A DNA stretch of 64,000 nucleotides from Aureispira sp. CCB-QB1 (GTDB lineage: Bacteria; Bacteroidota; Bacteroidia; Chitinophagales; Saprospiraceae). The notes under the pieces are model-generated. The model did not search any database and was not told the origin of the DNA. It worked only from the letters and a program-made list of their open reading frames with translations. Both the position numbers and the translations under genes were made by a program. The stretch's first letter is position 1. Each line of letters begins with the position of its first letter. Below are positions 24,196 through 31,294 of the stretch, in pieces. The stretch lies in the NCBI RefSeq assembly GCF_000724545.1, contig NZ_JHBV01000039.1:1-64000 (forward strand), read 5' to 3'.

Positions 24196-24240
24196 TCGGA
24201 ATAAAGCAATTTTGTTTTATTCCGATTTTTTATTTTTTTT
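24196..24240 (+). terminator. Rho-independent terminator
   Basis: TCGGAATAAA (24196-24205) pairs with TTTATTCCGA (24216-24225), a perfect 10-base stem with a 10-base loop, followed by a T-rich run. It lies between the PepSY-like gene and the next gene. Confidence 0.85.
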
Positions 24241-24904: not shown

Positions 24905-25768
24905 ATGAAAAAAACATTTATACAAGCCTTAGCCATTGTAACGATTATGATTTTTAAGCGTTACAAAATCCATCTGTTAAACAACAATCAGATAGAATGG
25001 GTAAAAGAAATAGATGTTGCTTTTGTGGATGTTTTGTTAAATTATGTTTATTTTCTTTTGATACTTAGTTTTGCCAAAGGAGCTATTTTCTTTTGGTATC
25101 GAAAAAGCAAGAAAATCCCTCAAGAAAGATCTGACAATATTATTTTGGGGGTGAACAATATTCATGCTTTGGTTGTCGGAGTGGTAACTGTCCTAACAGG
25201 GCTTGCCTTGATGGGAATTGATGTGAAAGCCTTTTTTGCTTCATTGAGTATCATAGCAGCCGCTATTGCTATTATTTCGAAGGACTATATTTCCAACGTC
25301 ATAGGAGGAATGCTGATTGCCTTTTCGAATGATGTGAATCTTGGAGATTATATCAAGGTAGGGGGCAACAAAGGGAAGGTAATAGATATGTCGATTACCA
25401 TGTTTAGTTTGTTGACGGACGATGATGATGTGGTTATTATTCCGAATAATATGGTATATGCTTTGGATGTTATTAATTATACCAAAAGAGCTATAAAAAA
25501 GACCAGTATAGAGTTTGAAATAAGTTTAGACGCAATTGCTACAGTGAGTCAGTTAGAAGCAGATTTAATTGCTACTTTAAACGAATTTGACCCTATTATT
25601 CAAAGTGATTCTTACAACCTAAAAGCAGTGGGAATTAAAAAAGACTATGTAGAATTTAAGTTTCAATATATTTTAGATATACCCGACCGAGAGAAAGAAA
25701 AAGATATTCGAAAGAAAGTAATTCGGAGAGTAGTACAAATTATCAAAAAAGTTGATTCTTCTCTGTAA
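24905..25768 (+). CDS. MscS-family mechanosensitive channel
   Basis: A 287-residue membrane channel that would open on membrane tension and release small osmolytes. Hydrophobic segments lie at about 5-17 (short), 42-62 and 82-102, and the pore-lining third helix is about 105-140 (AFFASLSIIAAAIAIISKDY). The MscS hallmark ISNVIGGMLIAFSNDVNLGDYIKV follows, then the small beta domain and a C-terminal alpha/beta domain. It is shorter than many paralogues. It precedes the ATP-grasp cassette by 65 bases on the same strand, so cotranscription is possible. Confidence 0.9.
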   Translation: MKKTFIQALAIVTIMIFKRYKIHLLNNNQIEWVKEIDVAFVDVLLNYVYFLLILSFAKGAIFFWYRKSKKIPQERSDNIILGVNNIHALVVGVVTVLTGLALMGIDVKAFFASLSIIAAAIAIISKDYISNVIGGMLIAFSNDVNLGDYIKVGGNKGKVIDMSITMFSLLTDDDDVVIIPNNMVYALDVINYTKRAIKKTSIEFEISLDAIATVSQLEADLIATLNEFDPIIQSDSYNLKAVGIKKDYVEFKFQYILDIPDREKEKDIRKKVIRRVVQIIKKVDSSL

Positions 25769-25832: not shown

Positions 25833-27293
25833 ATGAACAGAAAAATCCAAGTTATTCAACCAGGCACTTTTGAAGGAGAAAATCATTGGTATCCAAAGGC
25901 TTTAAATGCGACCATTCATCCAATGGTTAGCTTTTTTTTGAACCTAGATACTAAGCGAATTATCAATCGTTATTGCCATTTGCATCCCAAAGTGAATCGA
26001 GAAAAGCTATCAGAAATTTTAACATACAAATGCAAGCATTTTTTGTGGTGTGGGGCAGATTTAATTAATGCTACTTCTGCGAATGGTTTTAAAAGAATGG
26101 TTGTGATTGAAAATAATTCAAGTCCATCAGGGCAAAAATCAATGCCATTGTTGGATGATAACAAGGAAGATGGTTCGTACCGTTTGTTGGTAGAGCGAAC
26201 ATTTAAGCCTTATATTAGAAATAAAAAAGGGAAAGCAAAGGTAGAGGGGAAACTAGCTGTCCTATATGATAAAAACTTCATGGAGGTATCTGGTTATGGA
26301 CATGTTATCTCTGATGTAATGGGAGAAGAGTGCTTTTTGGTACCTTACTTCTATGGAGAAGACAACAAGCATATAAAAGTAGAGGATGATCAAATGCATT
26401 TTCAAACAGAAGATGGTACTTGGCATCCATTAAGAGCTGTTTTTCGCTATGTAACTCAACGTCCTTGGACAAGGTTTCCGTTACATTCTAAAACTAAGAT
26501 TTTAAATCCAATTGCTGCTTGTTTGGCGGGAGGTCGTAACAAAATGGTTGCTGCCAAAGCTTATGATTTGTACAATGCACAATTAGAGCCTTATGGTTTG
26601 CAAATTAATATTCCAGAAACAATATGGGATGTGAATAAAGCTGAAATTCCATTATGGGTAACCAAAATGGGAGGGCATGCGGTTATTAAAATTCCTTATA
26701 GCAACGCTGGGCAAGGTGTCTTCACGATTACGAGTGAAGAGGAGTTGGATGCTTTTATGGAAATGGAGTTTGATTATGAACGTTTTATTGTTCAAAGTCT
26801 AATAGGGAATTATAATTGGAGTTCGACAGGCAATAAAGGAAAGTTTTATCATGTAGGGACAATTCCCAATCAAAAAGGCGAAACTTTTGTCACGGATATT
26901 CGAATGATGGCAAGCAGTACTGTAGATGGTATTCGCCCTTTGTGTGTTTACTCTCGAAGAGCAGCAAAACCGTTGGTAGATCACCTCAAAGAAGGTGCTG
27001 AATCTTGGGATATGCTAGGTACCAATTTATCTGTAAAAGAAGGAACTAATGTTTGGTCAAGTGATACCAATCGCCTGATGTTAATGGATCGTCGAGACTT
27101 TAATAAATTAGGAATAGGTTTAGATGATTTGATAGAATGCTATATTCAGACGGTATTATCTATGGTTGCTATTGATAAAATGTGTATTAAGTTATATAAT
27201 AGCAAAGGTAAATTTAGAATGCGTTTGTTCAAATCTTTAAATGACGATGCCACTTTGTTGAATGAAATATTAGAAGGAAATGAAAAAGTATAA
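25833..27293 (+). CDS. ATP-grasp family protein, uncharacterised ligase
   Basis: 486 residues. The N-terminal half (1-215) is unlike known families and contains IENNSSPSGQKSMP near residue 92. The second half has ATP-grasp features: a conserved region NPIAACLAGGRNKMV (225-239), the nucleotide-binding lysine and glycine loop VIKIPYSNAGQG (284-294, K286), FIVQSLIG (318-325), and a later TDIRMMAS segment (354-361). ATP-grasp enzymes join a carboxylate to an amine with ATP. It overlaps the next ATP-grasp gene by 14 bases, so the two are translationally coupled. Substrates unknown. Confidence 0.7.
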   Translation: MNRKIQVIQPGTFEGENHWYPKALNATIHPMVSFFLNLDTKRIINRYCHLHPKVNREKLSEILTYKCKHFLWCGADLINATSANGFKRMVVIENNSSPSGQKSMPLLDDNKEDGSYRLLVERTFKPYIRNKKGKAKVEGKLAVLYDKNFMEVSGYGHVISDVMGEECFLVPYFYGEDNKHIKVEDDQMHFQTEDGTWHPLRAVFRYVTQRPWTRFPLHSKTKILNPIAACLAGGRNKMVAAKAYDLYNAQLEPYGLQINIPETIWDVNKAEIPLWVTKMGGHAVIKIPYSNAGQGVFTITSEEELDAFMEMEFDYERFIVQSLIGNYNWSSTGNKGKFYHVGTIPNQKGETFVTDIRMMASSTVDGIRPLCVYSRRAAKPLVDHLKEGAESWDMLGTNLSVKEGTNVWSSDTNRLMLMDRRDFNKLGIGLDDLIECYIQTVLSMVAIDKMCIKLYNSKGKFRMRLFKSLNDDATLLNEILEGNEKV

Positions 27294-28293
27294 TTTTTTG
27301 GTGTTAACAGAACATACAAAGCACAGCGATCAAAATTCTTTGTATGCATTGGTAGCTGAACTTGCTAGACATGAAGAATCAGGGCAAGTATATGTTGCCA
27401 GTCGAGGCAATGCTAAAAATAAGTGTTTTTTTGAAGACAGAACATCGTCTGAAGTAGAAGCTACTCTGGCGACTTCTTCTTTTGCTTTTCAAAGCGATGG
27501 AGCTCAGTTCTTAGAGGACACTACGACAATAGACATTCAATCGGTCGATGTTGTTTTTATGCGCTTGCCAAGACCTGCTACGGATGAGTTTTTGGAGCAT
27601 TTGGTAAGCATAGCACCAAAGCAAGTATTTGTCAATAACCCCAAAGGTATTGTCAAAACAAGTACCAAGGAGTTTTTATTGAACTTCCCATCGGTATGCC
27701 CGCCAATGAAGTTTTGCCGATCTGTCATAGATGTGCTCAACTTTGCTTCCAAATATCCTATTGTGCTGAAGCCATTGCGAGAATATGGAGGAAAAGGGGT
27801 GGTAAAAGTGCAAGACCATTATGTTTTTGCAGGAGATGGTCGTCCTCAACCTATCAAAGAGTATTTGATGGAAATCAAACAAGAATTGGAAACCAATGGA
27901 TATTTGGCAATGAAATTCTTGAAGAATGTATCGGAAGGTGACAAGCGCATTTTGGTTGTAAATGGTGAGATTCTAGCGAGTTCTTTGCGCTTGCCTGCAC
28001 CAGATTCTTGGTTGTGTAATGTTGCACAGGGAGGAACTTCGGTGCCTTCTACTGTTAGCCCAGAAGAAGTGGAAATTATTGAACAAATAACTCCTACGCT
28101 ATTAAAAGAGGGAATTGTAATGTTTGGTGCAGATACCTTGGTGGGAGATGATGGAAAACGGATCTTGTCGGAAGTAAATACGTTGAGTATAGGCGGTTTC
28201 CCACAAGCAGCAGAGCAAACAGGAACTCCTGTCGTTAAAAAGGCAATTAATAATATAATAGCTTATGTCAATAGTCAACAACCTAGGGCTTAA
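27280..28293 (+). CDS. Glutathione synthetase-like ATP-grasp ligase
   Basis: A 337-residue ATP-grasp protein resembling prokaryotic glutathione synthetase (GshB/RimK group). PIVLKPLREYGGKGVVKV (K164) is the ATP-binding strand and glycine loop. DKRILVVNGEIL is a conserved central strand, and SEVNTLSIGGF is the C-terminal Mg- and ATP-binding motif, with Glu and Asn in place. The start ATG lies inside the end of the upstream ATP-grasp gene. Because gshA is not seen and the partner genes are an ATP-grasp and an amidohydrolase, true glutathione synthesis is doubtful. It is followed by a repeat family 1 module. Confidence 0.82.
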   Translation: MKKYNFLVLTEHTKHSDQNSLYALVAELARHEESGQVYVASRGNAKNKCFFEDRTSSEVEATLATSSFAFQSDGAQFLEDTTTIDIQSVDVVFMRLPRPATDEFLEHLVSIAPKQVFVNNPKGIVKTSTKEFLLNFPSVCPPMKFCRSVIDVLNFASKYPIVLKPLREYGGKGVVKVQDHYVFAGDGRPQPIKEYLMEIKQELETNGYLAMKFLKNVSEGDKRILVVNGEILASSLRLPAPDSWLCNVAQGGTSVPSTVSPEEVEIIEQITPTLLKEGIVMFGADTLVGDDGKRILSEVNTLSIGGFPQAAEQTGTPVVKKAINNIIAYVNSQQPRA

Positions 28294-28354
28294 GTTCGTT
28301 GCAAACACGCAGTAGCAGCGCAGCTAACTAAAAGCAAAGTGCTCATGAAGTAAT
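28293..28354. repeat. Repeat family 1 module copy
   Basis: AGTTCGTTG (28293-28301) is followed by CGCAGTAGCAGCGCAGCTAACTA (28308-28330) and GCTCATGAAGTAAT (28341-28354). The same modules occur at 3417-3550 and 50591-50638. It sits between two genes that would otherwise look cotranscribed. Confidence 0.75.
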
Positions 28355-28395
28355 CTACAGCGTATTAATTTTACTAAATTAAGAATTTATAGTTA

Positions 28396-29364
28396 ATGGA
28401 AGAACCTAAGGTAATTCAGCAATTTAATTTGTCTGATACCCCCCCTAAATCTATTCGACACTATTGGGTCGATTTAATTACGGATGGCATGAACAATCCT
28501 ATGCGTGTGCCGATTATGGTAGCAAGAGGTAGTCAAGATTTTCCGATCTTAGGACTCACAGCAGCCGTTCATGGCAATGAATTGAATGGCATTCCTGTGA
28601 TTCAGCGTTTGTTTTCAGAAATAGAGGTAGAGGATTTAAAAGGAACAATAGTGGGAGTTCCTGTTGTTAATATTCCTTCATTTGTACGCAAAAAAAGGCG
28701 TTTTAATGATGGAGTCGATCTCAATCATATTATGCCAGGCAAAGCAGATGGAAACGTGAGTCAAGTATATGCTTACCGTTTCTTTCATAAGCTAGTCAAG
28801 CATTTCGATTATTTGTTGGATTTGCACACTGCTAGTTTAGGGCGAATCAACTCTTACTATGTTAGAGCAGATATGAAACATCCTGTTACTAGAAAATTAG
28901 CGATGCTTCAAGGAGCGCAGTTGATTGTGCATAATCCTCCTTCAGATGGTACATTGAGAGGGGCAGCAGATGAAATTGATATTCCTGCTATTACACTGGA
29001 AGTGGGGAATCCCAATACGTTTCAACGTAAGATGATTAAGTCTGGAATTATTGGAGTACACAATGTGTTGTCTTATTTAGAAATGACAGACGACGAAGCA
29101 ATAATGCCTGAAATTCCAACTGTAGTATGTCAGCGATCTTATTGGATTTATACTGATATAGGGGGCTTGCTGCAAGTGCATGTAGATTTGATGGAAAGAG
29201 TAGAGGAGGGAACATTGATTGCTTCGATGCGAGATGTGTTTGGCAATTTGGTAAAAGAGTATTTTGCGCCAGAAGATGGTGTTGTAATCGGAAAAAGTGT
29301 TAGTCCTGTGAATCAAACTGGAGGACGTATTTTACACTTGGGCATCGTTAGGAAAAATACATAA
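28396..29364 (+). CDS. Aspartoacylase/succinylglutamate desuccinylase-like zinc amidohydrolase
   Basis: 322 residues of the M14-like AstE/AspA family, which cleaves N-acyl groups from amino acids. Visible zinc ligands are H59 and E62 (HGNE) and H144 (LDLHTAS); the general base is E202 (ITLEVGN). NIPSFVRKKRRFNDGVDLNH is the conserved substrate-loop region. A C-terminal lipoyl-like beta domain (about 250-320) is present. It comes 102 bases after the tandem ATP-grasp genes on the same strand, so it probably deacylates a product of that pair or a precursor. A strong hairpin follows. Confidence 0.85.
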   Translation: MEEPKVIQQFNLSDTPPKSIRHYWVDLITDGMNNPMRVPIMVARGSQDFPILGLTAAVHGNELNGIPVIQRLFSEIEVEDLKGTIVGVPVVNIPSFVRKKRRFNDGVDLNHIMPGKADGNVSQVYAYRFFHKLVKHFDYLLDLHTASLGRINSYYVRADMKHPVTRKLAMLQGAQLIVHNPPSDGTLRGAADEIDIPAITLEVGNPNTFQRKMIKSGIIGVHNVLSYLEMTDDEAIMPEIPTVVCQRSYWIYTDIGGLLQVHVDLMERVEEGTLIASMRDVFGNLVKEYFAPEDGVVIGKSVSPVNQTGGRILHLGIVRKNT

Positions 29365-29382: not shown

Positions 29383-29418
29383 AACCCAGTTAAGTGTATC
29401 AATAAACTTAACTGGGTT
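29383..29418 (+). terminator. Hairpin terminator after the amidohydrolase gene
   Basis: AACCCAGTTAAGT (29383-29395) and ACTTAACTGGGTT (29406-29418) form a perfect 13-base stem with a 10-base loop. The following run is only moderately T-rich, so termination strength is uncertain. Confidence 0.7.
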
Positions 29419-29578: not shown

Positions 29579-30985
29579 ATGAAGAACACGTATACAGACT
29601 TAATAGAACAAAGCTATTATTTTCCTCAAGAGGGCTTTGATTTGAACAATGAATATTTGACTTTTCATGGGGTGTCTCTCAAATATTTGATTGAAAAATA
29701 CGGCACACCCTTTAAATTTATATACCTGCCCAAAATCGGGGACCAGATAAAAAAAGCTCGAAATCTATTTAAACGAGCCATTAAAAAGAACAAATACCAA
29801 GGGAATTACCACTTTTGTTACTGTACTAAGTGTAATCACTTTTATCACGTTGTTAGTGAGGCTTTAAAGCATAAGGTCAATTTGGAAACTTCTTCTTCTT
29901 TTGATATTGATTTAATTCTGAAATTATACAAAGAGAAAAAACTCAACAAAAAGTGCATCATTCTTCACAATGGTTATAAAACAGATGAATATCTACGAAA
30001 AATCCTAGAGCTAAATGAAATGGGATTCGAAAACTCTGTTATCATTTTGGATAGTACCGATGAGCTGACACGAATCGAAGCGATTAGTAAGGAGAATACC
30101 AAAAAAATTAAGATTGGCGTTCGAATGGCAATCAATGAGGAAGCTCAATCGGCTTATTATACGTCTCGATTAGGTATTCCACAAAAAGAGATGTTGGACT
30201 TTTTTCACAATCGAATCAAAGATAATGACAAATTTGAGTTAAAAATGTTGCACTTTTTTGTCGATTCGGGAATCAAAGATACTTTGTATTATTGGGGAGA
30301 ATTTCAACGTGCCTTGAGTCTGTACATTGAGATGAAAAAAGATGCGCCCAAATTGTCTTCTTTTAATTTAGGTGGTGGCTTCCCAATTCGAAATCACTTA
30401 GGGTTTGAGTATGATTACGAATATATGATCAATGAAATAGTGAGCAATATCAAAGAAGCTTGCGCCCAAGAAGGGATAGAAGAACCTAATATTTTTACAG
30501 AGTTTGGAAAGTATACGGTAGGAGAGTCAGGAGCGATTATTTTTGAGGTTTTAGAACAAAAACAGCAGAACGATACAGAAGCTTGGTATATTATTAATAA
30601 TAGCTTGATGAATACGATTCCTGATGCTTGGTCTATTCACGAAAAATTTATTCTGCTGCCAATCAACAAATGGTCAAACAACTATCAGCGAGTCAATATA
30701 GGAGGTATTAGTTGCGATCACTCAGATTACTACAATTCCGAAGATTTTAATCAAGAAATCCTTTTGCCCAAATATCCCAAAGATGATAAGGAGCCATTGT
30801 ATTTAGGCTTTTTTCATACGGGAGCTTATCAAGATGCGATTAGTGGATACGGAGGCATCAAACATTGCTTAATTCCTTCGCCCAAACAAGTAATTATTGA
30901 TCGGGATGAGAAAGGAAACTTCATAGATTATGTTTATCGAGAGGAGCAATCTGTTCAAGAAATGTTTAAGATTTTGGGCTATTGA
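29579..30985 (+). CDS. speA: PLP-dependent arginine decarboxylase-type enzyme
   Basis: A 468-residue fold-type III (alanine-racemase-like) decarboxylase, expected to be cytoplasmic and to make a polyamine precursor. YHFCYCTKCNHFYHV carries the PLP lysine (K84). The barrel includes HFFVDSG and NLGGGFPI, the cofactor phosphate site, and the C-terminal domain has FFHTGAYQDAISGYGG. The start (DLIEQSYYFPQEGFDL) resembles Bacteroidota biosynthetic arginine decarboxylases. It is preceded by a terminator hairpin, so it is probably its own unit. Substrate is inferred from sequence style; lysine or ornithine cannot be excluded. Confidence 0.78.
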   Translation: MKNTYTDLIEQSYYFPQEGFDLNNEYLTFHGVSLKYLIEKYGTPFKFIYLPKIGDQIKKARNLFKRAIKKNKYQGNYHFCYCTKCNHFYHVVSEALKHKVNLETSSSFDIDLILKLYKEKKLNKKCIILHNGYKTDEYLRKILELNEMGFENSVIILDSTDELTRIEAISKENTKKIKIGVRMAINEEAQSAYYTSRLGIPQKEMLDFFHNRIKDNDKFELKMLHFFVDSGIKDTLYYWGEFQRALSLYIEMKKDAPKLSSFNLGGGFPIRNHLGFEYDYEYMINEIVSNIKEACAQEGIEEPNIFTEFGKYTVGESGAIIFEVLEQKQQNDTEAWYIINNSLMNTIPDAWSIHEKFILLPINKWSNNYQRVNIGGISCDHSDYYNSEDFNQEILLPKYPKDDKEPLYLGFFHTGAYQDAISGYGGIKHCLIPSPKQVIIDRDEKGNFIDYVYREEQSVQEMFKILGY

Positions 30986-31294
30986 GTGTAGCACAAGACT
31001 AGTGTTAATTGAGATTCGTATGGCTTATTCTGTCGTGTTTGGTAATGGTAAAATTTACTAGAATAAGTTAATTGTTTAATGCATTGGTAGTGAGAAATAT
31101 AGTTAAAATAAAACAGTTTATGAAATATTTAATTTGTTAAGAATAGAAGATTTTTTTCATAAAATCACCCAATTGGCTTGGAAGTGTAAAATATTTTATA
31201 TCTTGAGCCTATCATGGGTTTTAGGGTTTAGTTTTCTGGTCAAGTTGCTCCTGCAACTTGGCCTTTTTTTTTAATTTAAATAAAAAGGAGACCA
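30986..31294. other. Intergenic region with hairpins
   Basis: A weak 8-base hairpin (CTTATTCT at 31024-31031 and AGAATAAG at 31060-31067) could end the decarboxylase transcript. The strong hairpin at 31238-31263 lies near the right end. I see nothing else. Confidence 0.5.
31238..31272 (+). terminator. Strong hairpin with T run just upstream of a gene start
   Basis: GGTCAAGTTGC (31238-31248) pairs with GCAACTTGGCC (31253-31263) with a single G-U mismatch and a four-base loop, followed by nine T residues. It looks like a classic terminator, yet it ends only 22 bases before the GTG start of the metalloprotease gene. Confidence 0.75.

Follow-up and report, generated by a model that had tools for sequence, protein, structure and literature searches.

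This report concerns three consecutive genes, here called A, B and C, in a stretch of 64,000 nucleotides (the window) from the 7.4 Mb genome of Aureispira sp. CCB-QB1 (Table 1). The nearest named matches of A belong to uncultured Aureispira (89-90% identity of A). As the original prediction had stated from the letters alone, A and B encode proteins of 486 and 337 residues and overlap by 14 bases (27280-27293), an MscS channel gene lies before them, and a gene for a zinc amidohydrolase of the AstE/AspA family follows. The 102 bases between B and C carry a repeat of about 60 bp that is dispersed through the genome, where it matches at least 44 other sites. A gap of 214 bp lies between C and a gene for a pyridoxal phosphate (PLP)-dependent enzyme and contains a hairpin (-19.3 kcal/mol, z -5.2), which is not among the sites given by a consensus terminator scan. 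A, B and C look like a single transcript that ends 5' of the PLP gene. The decarboxylase that had been predicted to follow the cassette is indeed present and resembles arginine decarboxylases, but in this genome it is probably transcribed separately from C, because of the gap and the stable hairpin.

Table 1. Features of the A-B-C locus, in positions of the window.
Feature	Position	Strand	Description
MscS-type channel, 5' of A	24905-25768	+	MS_channel_2nd 57.7 bits (cut-off 20.2)
Gene A	25833-27293	+	486 residues; predicted ATP-grasp ligase; its sequence family is not represented in Pfam; GshA/glutathione-synthetase-like fold in the model
Motif IENNSSPSGQKSMP of A	26106-26147 (A residues 92-105)	+	Conserved strand-loop-helix
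Gene B	27280-28293	+	337 residues; GshB-like ATP-grasp ligase; GSH-S_ATP domain
Dispersed repeat of about 60 bp, B-C gap	28293-28376	.	Genome matches
Gene C	28396-29364	+	322 residues; DoeB/aspartoacylase-type zinc amidohydrolase; AstE_AspA_cat
Hairpin 3' of C, possible terminator	29383-29418	+	17-nt arms, 94% complementary
Arginine-decarboxylase-like PLP enzyme	29579-30985	+	468 residues; often adjoins the cassette

A, B and C form a real, conserved and co-inherited ligase-ligase-hydrolase cassette. The same 60 genomes, that of the window included, were searched with each of the three proteins: 17 hold all three genes, 39 hold none and four are mixed, and homologues of A occur in 20. The mixed genomes (genomes are numbered G, loci L) are G025 with A and C, the draft G015 with B and C, G020 with a lone divergent A (46% identity), and G022, in which A lies at a contig end. 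Counted as both, first only, second only and neither, the pairs amount to 17/3/1/39 for A-B (Fisher p 5e-11), 18/2/1/39 for A-C (p 4e-12) and 18/0/1/41 for B-C (p 2e-14); when each genus is represented by a single genome, the values become 5e-9 (A-B) and 5e-10 (A-C), which ignore relatedness beyond the genus. This co-inheritance is independent of adjacency, because the genes are split over contigs in several genomes (three separate contigs in G008 and G027, B apart from A in G029 and G033, C apart in G002). In G003, a genome of the same genus in 3 contigs, all three genes are absent, and the PLP gene, a gene for a 714-residue protein and nqrAB are kept in the window's order. The cassette idea, which had been staked on the co-occurrence of the three genes in other genomes, survives this survey.

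The same association is apparent in the gene neighborhoods of A relatives, for which the best 80 of 518 stretches from species-representative genomes were compared. C is found in 71 of these loci and B in 69, the latter count leaving out a distant RimK-like ligase of L091, which is 23% identical to B across 151 residues. Contig ends account for eight of the nine missing C genes and four of the eleven missing B genes; with these loci set aside, in which the contig ends just past A, C is present with A in 71 of the 72 loci that can be evaluated and B in 69 of 76. B is truly missing from L084, L088, L089, L090, L091, L092 and L126, and C from L123. Where the genes are adjacent, the open reading frames, as predicted with mechanically set starts, overlap in 52 of 64 cases for B/C and in 47 of 65 for A/B. 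The L091 ligase, of 302 residues, is followed by a distant C paralogue; this pair (L091:12163-14012) precedes the decarboxylase gene at a distance of a few kb from A-C and is possibly a parallel version of B-C.

In a sample of the window's phylum A occurs in nine of 395 genomes (its own counted), and none was found in plasmids, phages or viral contigs. In a sample of 398 Proteobacteria genomes it is full length in one, G451, the source of L084, around which the sample was centred; four further genomes gave matches of 21-24 bits to one ATP-grasp stretch. The L084 contig, which carries A and C in a metagenome assembly filed as Alcanivoracaceae, may be mis-binned, because A is full length in 0 of the other 397 genomes. 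Going by the accession prefixes, A is present in two differing copies in each of three metagenome assemblies (L049 and L074, L052 and L058, L064 and L071), and these copies are either paralogues or the product of mixed strains. L046:4728-7531 and L144:8697-11260, from G020 and G329, represent a branch of A that has diverged to 45-46% identity; B and C are not nearby there, and A sits, as judged by eye, between a gene for a membrane-like protein of 251 residues and a response-regulator-like gene. This branch possibly has a separate function within the family.

The original prediction took both A and B for ATP-grasp enzymes, which holds for B by Pfam and for A by predicted fold, but not by sequence profile. 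Protein A of the window matches no Pfam family at E <= 1 and yields only sub-threshold scores against NCBIfam (RimK family, E 0.012; MptN, 0.016; glutathione synthase, 0.056). Among 35 members of its family, two reach RimK and two reach ATP-grasp in Pfam, with a best E of 0.037, and PF08886 is absent from the 14 families matched at E <= 1 by any of them. Neither the single protein nor the 35-member profile finds a solved structure by sequence at E <= 10, and profile comparisons of A with B and of PF08886 with B found no relation. The AlphaFold model of A, built from 35 sequences (predicted template modelling score 0.88; mean predicted local distance difference test score 82.5), nevertheless has an ATP-grasp fold according to both Foldseek and VIA-align, so that the cassette idea also survives the second condition set for it, that homologues of A should have this fold. 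The best Foldseek matches include yeast glutathione synthase (1m0w, E 1.6e-7), a putative glutathionylspermidine synthase in second place (3n6x, E 4e-7) and a RimK-domain protein (5i47, E 5e-6). The top VIA-align match is the GshA structure 3k1t (Z 16.4 over 329 of 486 residues, 4.3 A), on whose chain residues 16-423 the model superposes with residues 45-455; 3k1t is found by a profile of ten PF08886 proteins at E 2e-194 and belongs to that family. LysX/ArgX come next (Z 13.4-13.5), followed by human glutathione synthetase (13.0, aligned from residue 14) and by GspS (12.4), which together with YjfC and YgiC spans Z 11.7-12.4, under GshA and level with other ligases. The other 49 VIA-align matches listed have Z of at least 11.1 and are titled as ATP-grasp-type ligases or synthetases.

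Because the structural alignments reach into the N-terminal half of A, much of this half appears to be ligase fold, which removes the earlier impression that it could not be placed: it is largely part of the GshA/glutathione-synthetase-like model and forms no separate domain. The motif IENNSSPSGQKSMP, which had been singled out in this half, is present, and 12 of the 14 positions are either invariant across the 35 sequences or conserved to 90% or more. In this region E93, N95, S96 and P98-L106 do not vary among 13 members, whose identity goes down to 45%, and the model places a strand at 87-94 and a helix at 99-103. By eye, the motif resembles VDTNxFPxGFNNL of PF08886, a likeness that serves as a lead only, because the profile comparison shows no relation.

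Protein B is assigned to the ATP-grasp ligases by its GSH-S_ATP domain (94.2 bits against a cut-off of 23). Its nearest solved chain is E. coli glutathione synthetase (1gsa, E 7e-16), and its scores are higher against GshB than against RimK models. It stays below the equivalog cut-offs for glutathione synthase, with 129.3 of 272 bits for PRK05246 and 123.7 of 299.05 bits for TIGR01380. A search of its own genome with B found no second match at E <= 1e-5.

Protein C belongs to the AstE_AspA_cat family as predicted (117.3 bits against a cut-off of 25), and its catalytic residues are intact: the zinc ligands H59, E62 and H144 and the catalytic E202, roles assigned by motif, are kept in 69 of 69 sequences. 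The nearest solved chains are 3na6 and then DoeB (6twm), aligned from residue 36 to 316-318; against the DoeB equivalog C reaches 68.6 of 402.7 bits, which is under the cut-off. Residues 109-111 of the window protein read LNH, with His111 where the aligned DoeB has LNR. We take this position to be that of human Arg71, by the DoeB alignment and the LNR motif familiar from the family. In human aspartoacylase, Arg63, Asn70, Arg71, Arg168 and Tyr288 interact with the substrate (PMC10998430; PMC5412892). At the positions of the human pair Asn70 and Arg71, the asparagine is kept in all 69 sequences, and the arginine is replaced by histidine in 60 of them, including C of the window.

This replacement usually goes along with the presence of B. 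Among 92 C-family proteins, 67 have His and B directly upstream, and another 10 combine Arg with an upstream A but lack B; the rest are four with His and no adjacent B, eight with Arg and neither gene, two with Arg and a B-family neighbor, and one with Ala and A. For the comparison on a tree, eight rows were dropped as paralogues (L040, L125, L175, L179, L172, L178, L180 and L091_13077), of which the first four look exported, L172 and L178 carry LNRIAPG, and L091_13077 stands beside the RimK-like ligase. Five rows were scored as having B, which lies elsewhere in the genome (L022, L168, L169, L171) or one open reading frame away (L106). Of the remaining 84 rows, 71 have His with B, 11 a residue other than His without B, and two Arg with B; scoring the L091 ligase as B changes this to 71/10/3. 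The tree requires four changes of the residue and three of B. The pattern is suggestive, and B probably changes the portion of the molecule by which C recognizes it. Four paralogues of C with LNR have a hydrophobic, signal-like N-terminus by eye (L040:13486-14556, L125:1189-2238, L175:3399-4502 and L179:3490-4563) and are possibly an exported version of the hydrolase.

Genes of polyamine metabolism recur around the cassette. The PLP enzyme of the window scores 77 bits for Orn_Arg_deC_N (cut-off 23.4) and its nearest solved chains are arginine decarboxylases, 3nzp being the first, although it remains under the equivalog cut-offs (speA, 181 of 624 bits; PRK05354, 192 of 369) and scores 104 bits with the lysA model. 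Terminator-like hairpins with T-rich tails occur 3' of its gene (31238-31263) and between two genes for 162-residue proteins (24196-24225). In the 80 loci a decarboxylase gene is found 37 times, agmatinase (comp 4; one member checked, above cut-off) 28 times and a deoxyhypusine-synthase (DHS)-like gene (comp 6; one member checked) 23 times, and an acidic protein 24 times. When the count is restricted to the 32 loci flanked on either side by 6 kb or more, C is found in 32, B in 27 (26 without L091), the decarboxylase (within 6 kb) in 16, agmatinase in 14, the acidic protein in 12 and the DHS-like gene in 10. A tally of 37 against 14 for the PLP gene is biased and was not used as a rate, as truncated loci were kept only when positive; the same bias applies to the 10 changes on the A tree, compared with a shuffled mean of 12.5. 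The decarboxylase gene may lie 3' of C, 5' of A or divergent from A, and in four of the 37 loci (L099, L103, L119, L121) it stands with agmatinase and a DHS-like gene between A and B-C. L141, L142 and L143, which come from other families in the phylum, also have A-C close to decarboxylase and agmatinase genes, with no B nearby. A fusion of GNAT and carbon-nitrogen hydrolase was noted between agmatinase and the DHS-like gene (L049:12266-13792, L060:16450-17985). The acidic protein, of 90-145 residues with a tail rich in D and E (e.g., L055:10171-10521, L049:8652-9077), occurs with the cassette or with polyamine genes and has no Pfam match in the two members checked.

Synthesis and editing of a small peptide or amide, as suggested originally, is still the best reading of the cassette, with a chemistry and an order of steps that we infer from the observed folds and families, co-inheritance, gene order and residue conservation. 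A, B and C very probably share one pathway, and it is likely that A forms an amide. A would make the first amide bond with ATP. B would join a second group to the product of A, probably at a free carboxylate, and the chances that the product of A is indeed its substrate appear balanced. C would cut an amide in the same compound, for release, recycling or editing. A and C would form the core and B the extension; where B is present, the change from Arg to His in C would be as if the substrate lacked the group that Arg would bind, and the product might behave as a glutathione-type peptide or conjugate. The explanation we prefer, at roughly even odds, is that A and B are a glutathione-like ligase pair and C their dedicated amidase, all three serving a single small molecule, which is possibly a conjugate of an arginine-derived amine. 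Such an amine (agmatine, putrescine or a derived polyamine) is plausible, because arginine decarboxylase and the genes that follow it recur beside or inside the cassette; that the product contains a polyamine or agmatine is conceivable, if somewhat doubtful.

Several observations weigh against this explanation. Comparison of A with ten GshA members of PF08886 gives an hhalign probability of 1.2%, both alignments being shallow, and since A and GshA show no relation in sequence, the function of GshA is not transferable to A. The link between B and the residue in C has exceptions, as L042 and L022 keep Arg despite B, and the number of independent pairs is one on starred (well-supported) branches (agreeing in 196 of 200 pairings) and three on all branches, so few that significance is out of reach for any sign test. 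Absence of B was judged within the fetched stretch for 10 of the 11 non-His rows and genome-wide for L043 (G025), and L091, one of these rows, has a distant RimK-like ligase nearby that was not scored as B. As to the amine, the DHS-like homospermidine gene is found in five of 20 genomes with A versus 18 of 40 without (p 0.17), and a gene of the deoxyhypusine-synthase family was not found in the genome of the window. A decarboxylase is present in 52 of the 60 genomes and in all 20 with A (p 0.043); because the gene is near-universal, its link to the cassette is positional, and here a hairpin intervenes as well. The agmatinase-family matches of the window's genome all fall under the family cut-off. 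With DHS uncorrelated or absent, agmatinase below cut-off and the decarboxylase near-universal, the amine partner is put forward tentatively. An obligate tie of A to homospermidine synthesis was rejected on the DHS counts.

Among the alternatives, a system of polyamine conjugation and deconjugation survives best, even though it is itself unlikely: A would couple agmatine, putrescine or (homo)spermidine to an acid, B would extend the conjugate and C would free the amine, so that the trio stores and releases polyamines like glutathionylspermidine synthetase/amidase. The similarity of the model of A to 3n6x and, at Z 11.7-12.4, to GspS, YjfC and YgiC is consistent with this, but folds of the glutathione synthetase type score equally. 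The position of the genes for arginine decarboxylase, agmatinase and the DHS-like protein, next to the cassette or within it, speaks for it as well, but A is uncorrelated with the DHS gene, and the window's own genome has sub-cut-off agmatinase matches and no DHS. The loss of the substrate-contact Arg in C would suit an amine without a carboxylate. A precedent for the clustering is provided by the hss-gss clusters of beta-Proteobacteria, which are read as a potential for glutathionylhomospermidine in PMC9992855, where DHS-like proteins that make homospermidine (SpeY) are also described.

The MscS gene of the window raises the improbable alternative that A and B make a compatible-solute peptide, which C degrades and MscS releases at osmotic downshock. 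Aureispira is marine, and the nearest named relative of C is DoeB, an enzyme of ectoine breakdown. An MscS gene lies directly 5' of A, besides the window, in L047, L048 and L051 only; genes of the MscS family are neighbors of A, B or C in just eight of 80 loci, and these belong to two families at differing positions, which argues against this alternative. Still less probable is that A and B act in the manner of RimK on a protein end, with C trimming the tag. LysX and ArgX, which use a carrier protein (LysW in the title of 3vpb), are the next-best fold matches of A, and the acidic protein (comp 5), found in 24 of 80 loci, would be a candidate target; however, this protein is absent from the window and also travels with polyamine genes away from C, and GshB models fit B better than RimK models. 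Plain glutathione synthesis by divergent enzymes, in which A makes gamma-glutamylcysteine and B adds glycine, is very improbable: GshA is the best fold match of A, B is GshB-like without a second match at E <= 1e-5 in its genome, and gshA-gshB tandems exist elsewhere, but B is far under the glutathione synthase cut-offs, and a hydrolase beside A in nearly all loci as well as the B-less lineages fit poorly.

With these results, an ATP-grasp family outside Pfam gains a predicted fold and a set of partners, with relatives in 518 stretches of species-representative genomes. Should the product of the glutathione-like ligase pair and its amidase prove to be a new molecule, glutathione-like or linked to polyamines, then Saprospiraceae and some Flavobacteria would have a metabolite pool that has so far gone unseen. 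The His/Arg variation of C offers a direct mutational handle on whether B and C share a substrate. Gene neighborhoods of ATP-grasp amidoligases were reportedly surveyed in 2009 by Iyer and colleagues; no description of the A-B-C cassette was found in the titles and abstract openings of the literature searched, which lay mostly outside subscription journals.

Each part of the cassette can be compared with a known system. GshA of PF08886 (3k1t) is closest to A in fold, and with gshB, which adjoins PF08886 gshA in four of 10 loci (L149, L150, L153, L158), it forms a ligase tandem laid out as A-B. However, A lacks a sequence match to it and is accompanied by a zinc hydrolase; PF08886, the GshA family sought, is above cut-off in none of 14 genomes that carry A. 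B shares the ATP domain of GshB but scores less than half of the equivalog cut-offs. C aligns with DoeB (N-acetyl-diaminobutanoate deacetylase), AstE and aspartoacylase and keeps their zinc and catalytic residues, but falls far short of the DoeB cut-off and has LNH in place of LNR. Glutathionylspermidine synthetase/amidase and the hss-gss clusters likewise combine an ATP-grasp ligase of possibly similar fold near polyamine genes with a paired amide hydrolase; in contrast, A and C are separate genes, A has no sequence match to the synthetase, and a polyamine substrate is hypothetical here. The hydrolase fold of glutathionylspermidine amidase also differs from that of C. In its most specific form, our proposal is a new conjugate system of Bacteroidota, in which a peptide is assembled on an arginine-derived amine by A together with a GshB-like ligase and is dismantled by a dedicated aspartoacylase-like amidase, re-tuned from Arg to His in lineages that have the second ligase. 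All of this together is rather improbable, but if true, such a system would be a functional counterpart of glutathionylspermidine, assembled from different parts.

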